Assembly (NCBI GenBank): GCA_903920145.1
Contig: CAIXKV010000087.1
Span: 1-49,687 of the forward strand
Direction of reading: 5' to 3'
Source: an uncultured Rhodospirillales bacterium
Lineage (GTDB): Bacteria > Pseudomonadota > Alphaproteobacteria > Azospirillales > Azospirillaceae
Length of the DNA: 49,687 nt
The notes beneath the pieces are model-generated. The model had not been told where the DNA came from, did not search any database, and saw only the letters and a program-made list of their open reading frames with translations. Made by a program: the position numbers and the translations under genes. Shown here one piece after another: positions 4,137 through 13,851 of the stretch; positions within the stretch are counted from its first letter, which is position 1, and each line of letters opens with the position of its first letter.

Positions 4137-4280
4137 CACCAGCGACTGCCCAACAGAAAAGGGGTTAGCCAATCACTCAGCTAACCCCTTGAAATCATCG
4201 GCGGACCCGATACGATTCGAACGTGCGACCTATGCCTTCGGAGTTGCGTTCGATGAGGTATAGCGCATTGTATTCATTGA
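4137..4280 (-). repeat. Displaced tRNA-Arg 3' end, attachment-site copy 2
   Basis: Bases 4199-4241 resemble the tRNA-Arg 3' half and carry the same altered T-arm sequence as copies 1 and 3 (GATACGATTCGAACGTGCG), which differs from the resident tRNA. The 5' half of the tRNA is absent. It separates unit 1 from unit 2, and the sequence just beyond it, up to 4312, carries paired integrase arm-type repeats. Confidence 0.75.
4157..4188 (-). terminator. tRNA-type terminator, copy 2
   Basis: Perfect 9-bp stem, 4161-4169 with 4180-4188, followed on the minus strand by TTTT. It is identical to copy 1. Confidence 0.7.
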
Positions 4281-4293
4281 TAGATATTTCGAC

Positions 4294-4312
4294 TGTGCTA
4301 ACATTGTGCTAA
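4294..4312 (+). promoter_or_regulatory. Paired arm-type repeats beside att copy 2
   Basis: TGTGCTAA occurs twice with an 11-bp period (4294-4301 and 4305-4312). The same pair recurs at 6667-6685, 13607-13625 and 13704-13721, and as TGTACTTA/TGTACTAA at 6409-6427, always beside an att copy or the integrase start. I infer binding sites for the integrase N-terminal arm-binding domain. Confidence 0.55.
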
Positions 4313-4340
4313 TGAGCCTTCGGGCGAACATCCTTTCATT

Positions 4341-5267
4341 CTACGCCGGATTTTTCAGCAGACTACGAAGTTCGTCTATTGAAAGTAGTGGTTTGCGTCT
4401 ATGAACAACACAATGGCAGTTAGGACAAAGCGGTATCATATCCTTTTTCGGGTCTGGATTTTGATTGCCCTCACACAATGGAATCAAGTGGTGAATATGT
4501 ATAAGTGCCCTTCCAATCTCGCCATAAACTGCTTCGAAGTTGAATCCGCATCCCTGACAGAAACACCCCCAATGCTCAACACACAACCTCCGGTTTTCAA
4601 GGCTTCTTTCAAACTTTGTTCCCCACACCTTGTATCTGCCACCTTCTTCATCAGCATTCCCATCGGTTGTTGCGGGTGCCTCACTGCTAATTAGTTCTTT
4701 GAAGCCGTCGTTGAATTCATTTGATTCCTCCGGCTCATAATATCCGCACGGAAAATGACCTAGAATACTCTTCGGAACCAGCAAAGTTCGTTGATTAGGT
4801 TCCAGCAGAAAGACATCACCACCACGCGCAACTACCCTGTACGTATTTATTCCATCGATCTTATGCTGCTGAGATGGAAATCGATGTTCCTGCCTTTCAC
4901 GAAAAACCGTCGCATTTCTATACCATCCGACTACCCGTCGCCCACCTTGCGGTGGGGTTGCTGCCCAGTAAACATCTATTCCGGAAACTTGAGCCGCACC
5001 ATTTGCACCCAATTTATCAATTTGAATTTTTCTATCAGTATTTTCACCTTTCGAGGTTTCAATATGGCCATAGACATTTCCGTCATCCGCAACCAAAAAG
5101 TTGCAAGCCTCGTGAGAGCCATTTTCAGAGCCACCTCTTATAATATCATCATTTTTGCCCCGAAGTCCTTTGTATTCATTCATCCACGCGATGCCGCAAA
5201 TTAGTATCACATTCGCCCCCATTATGACGGCGGCCCTGCAAACCGGTCGGCCGTCATCATCATACAT
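4341..5267 (-). CDS. HNH endonuclease (unit 2 cargo)
   Basis: This is a 308-residue protein with a C-terminal HNH/ββα-metal nuclease domain. It shows CQGCGFNF near residue 240, IHIHHLIPL as the central histidine motif, and LCPNCHCVVHRR as the second zinc ribbon. The N-terminal two thirds are not recognised, though the layout recalls McrA-like modification-dependent nucleases with a separate recognition domain. The ATG at 5267 shares one base with the TGA of the DUF6641-like pseudogene (TGATG), so translation was probably coupled; GTG at 5270 and ATG at 5222 are alternatives. It occupies the same slot as the DUF4268 gene of unit 3. A role in phage or plasmid exclusion is inferred from context only. 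Confidence 0.75.
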   Translation of the reverse strand: MYDDDGRPVCRAAVIMGANVILICGIAWMNEYKGLRGKNDDIIRGGSENGSHEACNFLVADDGNVYGHIETSKGENTDRKIQIDKLGANGAAQVSGIDVYWAATPPQGGRRVVGWYRNATVFRERQEHRFPSQQHKIDGINTYRVVARGGDVFLLEPNQRTLLVPKSILGHFPCGYYEPEESNEFNDGFKELISSEAPATTDGNADEEGGRYKVWGTKFERSLENRRLCVEHWGCFCQGCGFNFEAVYGEIGRALIHIHHLIPLCEGNQNPDPKKDMIPLCPNCHCVVHRRKPLLSIDELRSLLKNPA

Positions 5268-5779
5268 CACTTTCCAGCCTTCGCCATCCGTTTCGCCACG
5301 GTCGCCGGAACGGTCGCCGGAACGGTCGCCGGAACGGTCGCAACAACGGCACCGAGCGGCTTGCCGTCCTTCTTCATCCGCCGCTTCCGACCCTCGCTCG
5401 CCAGCCGTAAACTGTCGTCCAGTTCACCGTTTGCCACAGCCTGCTTCACCTTTTCCAGCACGGGCACCAACTTTTCTGTCGTCCCGACCACGATGCTGTT
5501 GCCGGTGCCGATCTTTAAAGCCTTGTTGCCGAAACGAAGGGCGAGGTAGATTTGCCCGTCGCTTCCCGACCACCACCACCACCGGAGCGGCCTCGATATT
5601 TTCTGCCGGACCTTGTTGCCACCATCAGCCTTCACCCATTTTTCGACCTGCCGAACATATTACTGACCGGCCTATTTCATCTGTGCCCCACGAAGTTGCT
5701 CGTCGATTTGAGCGAGCATCTTTTTGCGGAGCACCAAATGAGGTAAAGTTGCCTCATACCTCTTTGTGATCTCCGACAT
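5267..5779 (-). pseudogene. DUF6641-like gene with two in-frame stop codons
   Basis: The frame from ATG 5779 (MSEITKRYEAT...) to TGA 5267 is exactly 171 codons with no frameshift. It is interrupted by TAG at 5672-5674 and TAA at 5660-5662, four codons apart. After the stops it reads YVRQVEKWVK...GNKVRQ and continues, matching the paralogue at 8075-8626 (YTRTVEKCVK...GDKVRQ) and its acidic ELDDSL/basic-tail layout. Before the stops, RKKMLAQIDEQLRGAQ fits the family N-terminus. The C-terminus has a short ATVP repeat (three units, from CGGAACGGTCGC repeats at about 5304-5339). It is likely inactive as a full protein, although a GTG near 5635 could restart the C-terminal two thirds ahead of the HNH gene. 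Confidence 0.7.
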
Positions 5780-6240
5780 CGTGAGACCTTCGAGTATGCC
5801 CATTTTAACATCTCACACGGTTCAGTTGCGGTTTTCCAGCCTATGAAACCGTTGGGCGAGGTTCGGATCGTGGCGGAATGTTCCTTGCTCGGCATGTCGG
5901 GCGATAACAGCAACACGGGATATGCTCGCCAGCACGGCCAGGGTGTCAGCCAGTGCGATGATCGGGGGAGGGCTATAGCCGTATGCTTCGGGCCGGTCTC
6001 GCACACGGGCGGGGCTGGGGCAAAGTTTCACGGTGAAAGTTTCCCCGGCTTGCCCTAAAATGTCCGCCAGCGGACATATTTAATGTTTGATATCAATATG
6101 ATGGCCGAATAAAGTTGCGAGATCGCAAGTTTTTTGGTGTCGCCCGAAATCCGTGCCCGCCAGTATGATTGCCGGCCTGCTCGCTATTCCGCTATGCTTC
6201 GAACGGTTCAAGCACGATCACCACCGGCATCATCACCGTG
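5780..6240. other. Intergenic backbone segment of unit 2
   Basis: No convincing gene. Bases 5983-6104 are a copy of the palindrome-bearing block also found at 8860-8984. Bases 6190-6240 resemble 9060-9112 downstream of the DUF6626-like gene of unit 3. A minus-strand reading frame (5822-6031) shares the peptide SPARVRDRPEAY with one in unit 3 (8644-8925), but that follows from the conserved DNA and is weak evidence for coding. Confidence 0.6.
5983..6104. repeat. Backbone palindrome block, unit 2 copy
   Basis: About 100 of these bases match 8860-8984. The block carries TTTCACGGTGAAA (6025-6037) and the perfect 8-bp inverted repeat ATGTCCGC-CA-GCGGACAT (6060-6077), and ends in TATCAATATGAT. In both units it lies between the DUF6641-like and DUF6626-like genes, so an operator or promoter role is likely. 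Confidence 0.65.
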
Positions 6241-6356
6241 TTAAATCGTCAACTCACCGGCTGTAGCATCTTTCGCAAAATGCTTTTTCCGTCTGTGTGG
6301 CCCTTTCTTCAAACTCTCAACTCGTAATGCTACCCATAATCTGTCTGCCAGTTTTG
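6241..6356 (-). pseudogene. 3' stump of a DUF6626-like gene
   Basis: On the minus strand this reads K-LADRLWVALRVESLKK and then GPHRRKKHFAKDATAGELTI-stop. It matches the last 37 residues of the protein at 9108-9467 (ELSDRLWEAIRAESLRK...GELTI). Homology stops at about 6357, where the sequence switches to the start of an integrase gene matching 13560-13602. This is the deletion scar that removed the rest of the unit 2 backbone. Confidence 0.8.
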
Positions 6357-6533
6357 AATTGCTGAACCGCTCATGCTACCCGTTCCCGTGGGGCGCAAGT
6401 CCATGGGCTGTACTTACATTGTACTAAAGCCCGCGATCAAGGGATTTTCTGGAAAAGTTGAAACCCTTACGGGCACAGGGCATTTTCAAGGACGATGTTT
6501 TTTACTGTGCTGACCCAATCCGGGCATGATTTA
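6357..6533 (-). pseudogene. Integrase 5' end and upstream region left from a deletion
   Basis: Minus-strand translation from ATG 6404 reads MDLRPTGTGSMSGS, matching the N-terminal region of the intact integrase (MDLCPTGASNMSSS). Upstream bases 6421-6510 match 13619-13700 almost base for base (the ACCCTTACGGGCACAGGGC block). Only about 14 integrase codons survive before the frame runs into the DUF6626 stump and stops. The region ends at the terminator of att copy 3. Confidence 0.8.
6409..6427 (+). promoter_or_regulatory. Arm-type repeat pair, unit 2 integrase side
   Basis: TGTACTTA and TGTACTAA with an 11-bp period. This is a diverged copy of the pair at 13607-13625 at the same distance from the integrase start. 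Confidence 0.5.
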
Positions 6534-13572: not shown

Positions 13573-13606
13573 GTTGCTCGCTCCCGTGGGGCACAAGTCC
13601 AAGGGG

Positions 13607-13625
13607 TGTGCTTACAGTGTGCTAA
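13607..13625 (+). promoter_or_regulatory. Arm-type repeat pair at the integrase start
   Basis: TGTGCTTA and TGTGCTAA with an 11-bp period, overlapping the likely integrase promoter. If the integrase binds here it would autoregulate. The diverged unit 2 copy lies at 6409-6427. Confidence 0.5.
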
Positions 13626-13703
13626 AACCCGCGATCAAGGGATTTTCTGGAAATCCTGAAACCCTTACGGGCACAGGGCATTTTCAAGGACACTGTTTTT
13701 GGC

Positions 13704-13721
13704 TGTGCTAAACTGTGCTAA
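13704..13721 (+). promoter_or_regulatory. Arm-type repeat pair near the tRNA terminator
   Basis: TGTGCTAA twice with a 10-bp period, between the conserved ACCCTTACGGGCACAGGGC block and the tRNA-Arg terminator. Together with 13607-13625 it would form the integrase-side arm of the attachment site. Confidence 0.5.
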
Positions 13722-13735
13722 GCATTTTGGGCAGC

Positions 13736-13764
13736 AAAAAGGGGTTAACCGTTAGGCTAACCCC
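13736..13764 (-). terminator. Terminator of tRNA-Arg
   Basis: Stem GGGGTTA/TAACCCC (13741-13747 with 13758-13764) followed on the minus strand by TTTTT (13736-13740), ten bases beyond the tRNA 3' end. Confidence 0.8.
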
Positions 13765-13774
13765 TTGAAAAGTA

Positions 13775-13851
13775 TGGCGGACCCGTCCGAATTCGAATCG
13801 GAGACCTCTGCCTTCGGAGGGCAGCGCTCTATCCAGCTGAGCTACGGGTCC
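13775..13851 (-). tRNA. tRNA-Arg (anticodon CCG), integration target
   Basis: This is a complete 77-nt cloverleaf on the minus strand: acceptor GGACCCG paired with CGGGTCC, a D arm (AGCTCAGCTGGATAGAGC), an anticodon loop CTCCGAA giving anticodon CCG for CGG codons, a T loop ATTCGAA and an encoded 3' CCA. Its 3' end faces the island, and three partial copies of that end lie in the island, so it is the integration site. The T-arm stem here (TCCGA/TCGGA) differs from the displaced copies. Confidence 0.97.

Follow-up and report, generated by a model that had tools for sequence, protein, structure and literature searches.

Probable tandem accretion of related integrative elements with defence-rich cargo at a tRNA-Arg(CCG) gene of an Azospirillaceae bacterium

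Genes and repeats of the tandem units

The DNA analysed here is the whole contig G000:C87 of an Azospirillaceae bacterium (49.7 kb; hereafter, the window), in which three tandem units lie next to a tRNA-Arg(CCG) gene (13775-13851, minus strand). This gene, the integration target of the units, is the single tRNA gene of the window (ARAGORN; Rfam), and the Rfam search returned no RNA family besides tRNA. The units are delimited by attachment (att) copies, each of which consists of a partial repeat of the tRNA 3′ half and the terminator hairpin after it. These copies are found at 6533-6617, where the hairpin and a displaced tRNA 3′ half mark the junction of units 2 and 3, at 4160-4244 (junction of units 1 and 2) and at 24-108 (far end of unit 1); all are on the minus strand and in direct orientation. 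The tracts between them are unit 1 (24-4159), unit 2 (4160-6532) and unit 3 (6533-13774). Units 2 and 3 share blocks of 410 bp (75% identity, E = 5e-72), 161 bp (86%, E = 9e-50) and 142 bp (86%, E = 8e-44), and a left-end block is common to unit 1 as well (112 bp at 93% identity with unit 2; 113 bp at 89% with unit 3). This block sharing far exceeds chance. Because bases 1-64 of the contig are 97% identical to 4137-4200, the array extends leftwards beyond the contig: by this match, positions 1-23 represent the integrase-side end of a further unit, which places at least one more (fourth) unit left of the contig end.

Unit 3 is complete and is the sole unit with an integrase. Its tyrosine integrase (12307-13602, minus strand, 431 aa; PF00589, 9.9e-6; phrog_1, 3.5e-30) falls slightly below the Pfam cut-off and has a conserved RxxH...Y region in the family alignment; its true start is probably a few codons downstream of the annotated one. 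Next to it lies a serine recombinase (11583-12269, plus strand, 228 aa; PF00239, 2.7e-29), of which a 52% identical homologue occupies the equivalent place at tRNA-Pro of genome G048. An AT-rich stretch of 1.9 kb without recognisable genes follows (9658-11582), in which perfect 21-bp palindromic repeats (11190-11210 and 11477-11497) stand on both sides of a 36-nt hairpin (11225-11312). The stretch sits where full-size relatives have large middle genes, of which blastn, tblastx and tblastn found no convincing remnants in it; compared with these relatives of 16-19 kb, unit 3 appears reduced. Beyond the stretch are a 61-aa open reading frame (ORF) that the comparison of relatives shows to be conserved in 12 elements (9475-9657, minus strand), a DUF6626 protein (9108-9467, minus strand, 119 aa; PF20331, 4.5e-11), a palindrome block that includes the DUF6626 3′ end (8829-9220; unit alignment), a DUF6641-like protein (8075-8647, minus strand; phrog_31551, 6.4e-15) and, as cargo, a DUF4268 protein (6657-7763, minus strand; PF14088, 1.9e-27) that matches the PADLOC defence candidate PDC-S11 (5.9e-117). 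The Pfam match of the DUF6641-like protein is weak; both copies in the window match phrog_31551 and align with the relatives.

Unit 2 is a decayed relative of unit 3, from which the integrase has been deleted. It lacks the counterpart of the unit 3 sequence from 9220 to 13549, and the flanking blocks meet at 6351-6353. On one side of this joint is the remnant of the integrase start with its upstream block (6351-6511, minus strand; 86% identical to 13549-13709), and on the other the counterpart of the palindrome block with the DUF6626 C-terminal remnant (5949-6353; unit alignment), so that the last ~25-37 codons of DUF6626 survive and are followed directly by the integrase start. The DUF6641-like gene of unit 2 (5267-5803, minus strand; sequence alignment, phrog_31551) is a pseudogene with two in-frame stops and an open part at 5267-5635. 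The cargo is an HNH endonuclease (4341-5270, minus strand; PF01844, 3.9e-5, above the cut-off), whose PADLOC match to a type IV restriction endonuclease is weak (7.9e-6) and confined to the HNH part. Unit 1 has kept its att ends and two cargo genes, and the integrase-side block is wholly absent. The cargo genes encode a TrlF-family PHP/SMC-like ATPase (1384-4134, minus strand; NCBIfam NF045780, 5e-152; PADLOC Ppl, 8e-37), the start of which is separated from the att copy by ~25 bp, and a protein with Schlafen AlbA_2 and HATPase_c_4 domains (173-1387, minus strand; PF04326, PF13749), whose gene overlaps the TrlF gene.

An earlier, sequence-only reading of this DNA had units 2 and 3 follow the same order. 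That is so for the shared blocks and not for the genes, since unit 2 lacks the integrase and retains only the C-terminal end of DUF6626. The reading was right that the cargo of the two units is unrelated (HNH versus DUF4268) and that unit 1 carries cargo of a third kind. The 61-aa ORF had been missed in it, and the serine recombinase, the 1.9 kb without recognisable genes, the stops in the DUF6641-like gene of unit 2 and the additional unit beyond the contig end are further corrections to it.

Arm-type sites and order of arrival

Lambda-type tyrosine integrases are expected to have paired arm-type sites at the ends of their elements. We searched the window for TAGC[AG]C[AG] as direct pairs 9-12 bp apart, with 60 first-order Markov shuffles as a control. 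There are exactly three such pairs (at 13720, 6684 and 4311; shuffle mean, 0.0), with spacings of 10-11 bp, and every one lies at a unit end: TTAGCACAGTTTAGCACA at the integrase-proximal end of unit 3 (13703-13721, minus strand), TTAGCGCGGACTTAGCGCA at its distal end (6666-6685, minus strand) and TTAGCACAATGTTAGCACA at the distal end of unit 2 (4293-4312, minus strand). The distal pairs start 50 bp inside the core in units 2 and 3 alike, and a weaker second pair (13607-13625) lies ~100 bp closer to the integrase start. The pairs have the appearance that arm-type sites of the tyrosine integrase should have, and we regard them as putative sites of this kind. At the distal end of unit 1, a candidate pair of another type (CTACATTA/CTACACTA, 11 bp apart; 157-175) is found at the same distance as in the other units, and its type matches that of the GTAGTGTAG pairs beside tRNA-Arg(CCG) in genome G047. 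The motif of units 2 and 3 recurs at the two ends of the complete Azospirillum elements of G003, G004 and G021, all three of which lie at tRNA-Phe. In G021, a pair with one mismatch takes the usual integrase-proximal place, and pairs of the strict pattern lie at the distal end and close to the start of the integrase. The integrases of these three elements are only ~48% identical to that of unit 3 and their core is different, yet the arm pairs are shared.

The att copies also bear on the order of arrival. The T-arm of the copy at 6572-6617 is GTACGTTCGAATCGTAT, and this T-arm and the acceptor part are identical to those of the intact tRNA-Arg(CCG) of genomes G079, G059 and G052, which have no integrase beside that gene. 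The tRNA-Arg(CCG) of the window has an unusual T-arm, CCGATTCGAATTCGG, that resembles the one of G048, where a 69% identical integrase adjoins the same tRNA. The 3′ half of the window's tRNA was thus probably brought by an element. That the displaced half is the one of the relatives' intact tRNA suggests, as the simplest reading, that unit 3 arrived with a 3′ half of its own, displaced the older one and thereby rewrote the T-arm, which would make it the last to arrive and the youngest of the units. Decay rises with distance from the tRNA: unit 3 is intact, unit 2 has no integrase and a DUF6641-like gene with two stops, and unit 1 is cargo alone. The units look like one complete element accompanied by decaying cis-mobilisable remnants, not like equal copies.

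Relatives of the elements and their cargo

To place the units, we surveyed 82 genomes of the same order for the integrase (E <= 1e-40) and found it in 12 of them, in two of 13 genera. A tRNA gene lies directly upstream of all integrase loci except one, whose contig holds no tRNA; the targets are the genes of tRNA-Arg(CCG), tRNA-Pro, tRNA-Lys, tRNA-Arg(ACG) and tRNA-Phe in the order, and tRNA-Met outside it. Fifteen integrase loci could be counted, their contigs extending far enough beyond the integrase; in 14 of them, the fetched stretch encodes DUF6641 and/or DUF6626, and the exception (G020:C27) carries two other family genes. In most elements of the same genus, the DUF6641/DUF6626 module is inverted and stands right behind the integrase. 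The association of integrase, DUF6641 and DUF6626 that the sequence-only reading had predicted at tRNA-Arg(CCG) is therefore recovered, nearly always behind tRNA genes, with a variable gene order and a wider range of targets. The genome of the window itself has two more DUF6641 genes on short contigs, C108 (with a DUF3768-type neighbour) and C263.

Outside the order, four genomes (G230, G292, G407 and G176) encode DUF6626 together with a second tyrosine recombinase of 200 aa; three of the four have an integrase of this group, and two have DUF6641. From the tRNA-Met gene on, G407 and G292, which belong to different families, are 97.0% identical over 3,439 bp of DNA, beyond which blocks of ~91% identity alternate with unrelated interiors. 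We read this pair as a natural example of a common backbone with swapped contents. In G407, G292 and G230, searches for repeats of the tRNA or of the guaA end did not find the distal att. The member in G230 (L080, on G230:C2) lies, by our own reading of the sequence, directly downstream of guaA and not of a tRNA gene, and its apparent cargo is an acyltransferase/SGNH gene. These members place the island family across Alphaproteobacteria. No paper naming either DUF6641 or DUF6626 turned up in a literature search, and within the papers searched the family appears to be undescribed, as do its core genes.

Three elements are known in full length: those of G003 (A. agricola) and G021 (A. lipoferum Sp59b) measure about 16.7 kb each, that of G004 measures about 19.4 kb, and all are bounded by tRNA-Phe repeats of 46-52 bp. 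Full-size relatives encode a helicase/primase-like protein with PHROGs matches, and family members carry a gene pair, the second protein of which has a DSGGFQ motif, a weak TgtA match (5.5e-6) and many phage relatives. The motif and the profile match suggest a TGT/DpdA-like base-exchange enzyme; apart from weak TgtA matches, the searches gave no PDB or Pfam match. Such proteins are encoded at L035:14157-15434, L044:14107-15375 and L026:11363-12904, immediately downstream of a large and divergent partner gene; jumbo phages such as PA5oct and hundreds of IMG/VR contigs encode relatives of them. The Azospirillum islands also have a 200-aa Xer-like recombinase that comprises the catalytic domain only (L035:18352-18954 and relatives); at 71-92% identity among these islands, it is more conserved than the integrase itself. 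DUF6626 is predicted to be helical, and its conserved stretch FS..WLGRS..Y.S.L...P looks like a helix-turn-helix; we tentatively propose that the protein is a DNA-binding regulator. Four-helix matches of DUF6626 were discarded, the predicted structure being too weak.

The cargo of the family is variable and appears to be rich in defence genes. PADLOC identified a type I restriction-modification (R-M) system at tRNA-Arg(CCG) in G047, a type III R-M system with an HKD-Snf2 helicase in G003, a type III methylase with a helicase in G021 and PDC-S06 in G004. Further systems were assigned by proximity, the distal end not having been found: Hp2 in G022, HamA (Hachiman) in G020:C23, type I R-M and UzuA in G176, and a fragment of a type III enzyme in G407. 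Genes that share islands with known defence systems (DUF4268, TrlF/AlbA_2 and HNH) become better defence candidates. The sequence-only reading had envisaged a family of defence islands with a cargo slot beside att. The family and its variable, mostly defence-like cargo are borne out. A common slot beside att was rejected as a family rule because the position of the cargo varies: in G003 and G021, the gap between DUF6641 and att holds a DUF3768 gene only, and the R-M cargo is in the middle of the element.

In G047, a related species, the contigs G047:C297 (L107) and G047:C298 (L104/L108) show an integrase-less type I R-M island behind the same tRNA-Arg(CCG), with arm repeats of a different type (GTAGTGTAG). 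An att copy on C298 has arms of the unit 3 type, which suggests another tandem array. Elsewhere in the window, 15631-15755 and 17849-17949 belong to a repeat of ~120 bp, dispersed over the genome in about 40 copies (87-96% identity), many of them at contig ends; this high-copy interspersed repeat probably breaks the assembly.

Mechanism, alternatives and known systems

The array has the features of integrative elements: a tyrosine integrase adjoins att at a conserved target, the core repeats match, and putative arm-type sites are present at both ends. Units 2 and 1 correspond, at the sequence level, to cis-mobilizable elements (CIMEs), in that att is kept, the integrase is lost and an integrase-bearing element is adjacent. 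The ORFs of 24-13774 were listed and the ten main ones scanned. Among these, there is no relaxase of an integrative and mobilizable element (IME), no conjugation machinery of an integrative and conjugative element (ICE), no capsid, portal or terminase gene of a prophage (PHROGs/Pfam) and no recognised packaging gene of a phage satellite. The genes scanned in G003 and G021 likewise include no recognised capsid, portal, terminase or relaxase. The poor fit to prophages and ICEs that had been noted from the sequence thus stands, as does the lack of recognised capsid and conjugation genes, both in unit 3 and among the scanned genes of the two complete relatives.

We consider it very likely that related site-specific integrative elements have accreted in tandem at the 3′ end of tRNA-Arg(CCG). 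The mechanism we propose, site-specific tandem accretion of the IME/CIME type, belongs to a kind already described. Each arrival would recombine within the tRNA 3′ half, such that the newcomer leaves its own 3′ half and terminator at the integrase end and the previous 3′ half is pushed to the far end. The integrase of unit 3 is predicted to bind the core within the tRNA and, at each end of the unit, the paired arm sites. The older units, 2 and 1, would be decayed, cis-mobilisable remnants with att sites and no integrase, and unit 2 could still move in trans or together with unit 3. DUF6626, the 61-aa ORF and DUF6641 may form a control module for excision or replication, as regulators or accessories, and the remainder would be exchangeable cargo, mostly for phage defence, that pays for the upkeep of the island. 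Transfer between cells, which we infer to occur, would most probably rely on a helper phage or plasmid, since no relaxase, type IV secretion system (T4SS) or capsid gene was recognised.

Several points weigh against this interpretation. The array runs past the left edge of the contig, and the excision and transfer of the units are predictions. Unit 1, with its other arm motif and without the integrase-side block, may belong to another integrase subfamily. The role of the control module is a guess because the predicted structures have low confidence (pLDDT of 63 for DUF6626 and 68 for DUF6641) and gave no fold match. As to defence, the proteins scanned in relatives were partly picked by eye, ten further proteins of complete elements that had not been scanned before yielded one weak PADLOC match, and the acyltransferase cargo of G230 is not a listed defence gene.

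Other explanations would account for part of these observations. The units could be prophages or phage satellites that have degenerated, with loss of the structural genes, and were retained as a defence island. Integration at a tRNA gene would fit such an origin, as would the helicase/primase-like and TGT/DpdA-like proteins of the full-size relatives. We nevertheless regard it as unlikely, given that complete 16.7 kb elements lack capsid, portal and terminase among their scanned genes, and that a search of 50,697 phage records and pattern scans of IMG/VR found neither DUF6641 nor DUF6626, with the integrase matching a single IMG/VR contig. The units may still be satellites that make use of the particles of a helper. 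It is less plausible still, and in our view improbable, that the array is a fixed genomic island, made up of scars that can no longer move and are conserved solely for the sake of their defence genes: decay is indeed seen in units 1 and 2, and unit 3 contains 1.9 kb without genes, but the integrase, arm pairs and att of unit 3 are intact, and near-identical elements occur in the different families of G407 and G292. If the array were one composite island whose segments arose by duplication, through homologous recombination of the att repeats, and not by separate arrivals, this would explain why units 2 and 3 share DNA at 75-86% identity and why the att repeats are direct. The cargo is unrelated in each unit, however, the copies of att differ in their halves, the arm sites of unit 1 are of another type, and a divergence of 15-25% speaks against recent duplication, all of which makes this origin very improbable.

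Within tandem accretion, we also conjecture, with considerable doubt, that the integrase, DUF6626, the 61-aa ORF and DUF6641 define a novel class of alphaproteobacterial hitchhiker elements that replicate. Its full-size forms, with the TGT/DpdA-like enzyme, the large partner and the helicase/primase-like protein, might replicate in excised form with modified DNA, spread through the particles of a helper phage or the conjugation of a helper and carry an exchangeable anti-phage system, and the window would then hold reduced forms piled up at one tRNA gene. The arm-pair motif offers a way to find, by sequence, both ends of an island, and hence its cargo, without prior knowledge of that cargo.

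Gamma-mobile-trio islands are recombinase-based and carry defence cargo. The integrase of the window fails the GmtY/GmtZ models and has no other NCBIfam match, and the 200-aa recombinase of the relatives is far below the cut-off. Exchangeable defence cargo within an integrated element is also found in the hotspots of P4-like satellites and P2-like prophages (PMC9122126), of which no genes were recognised in the window. The accretion of IMEs and CIMEs at tRNA genes, described for Streptococcus elements related to ICESt1, follows the same route and is alike in its decayed att-bearing remnants and in the later element at the target-gene end (PMC5704250); the islands of the window differ in showing no relaxase or T4SS link, in their mainly defence cargo and in their other integrase family with DUF6626/DUF6641. 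The same accretion route has been proposed for the ssrA islands of Dehalococcoides, which are likewise tandem islands with differing cargo at one RNA gene, with an integration module in some and without transfer genes, and which differ in having a serine integrase, a tmRNA target and reductive dehalogenase cargo (PMC3146451). The integrase-only defence islands of E. coli and the GInt elements, which combine three integrases with a helix-loop-helix protein, resemble the window in their defence cargo and integrase/recombinase genes, in the lack of other known mobility genes and in their unclear transfer (PMC10121019). Unlike them, the family described here belongs to Alphaproteobacteria, has the conserved 61-aa ORF/DUF6626/DUF6641 module and mapped putative arm sites, and does not have three clustered integrases, unit 3 carrying one tyrosine and one serine recombinase. 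Many defence systems lie on islands with an integrase and no visible means of transfer (PMC10121019); to their study, the alphaproteobacterial family offers mapped ends, arm sites, a conserved module and a series of complete to decayed units at one site.

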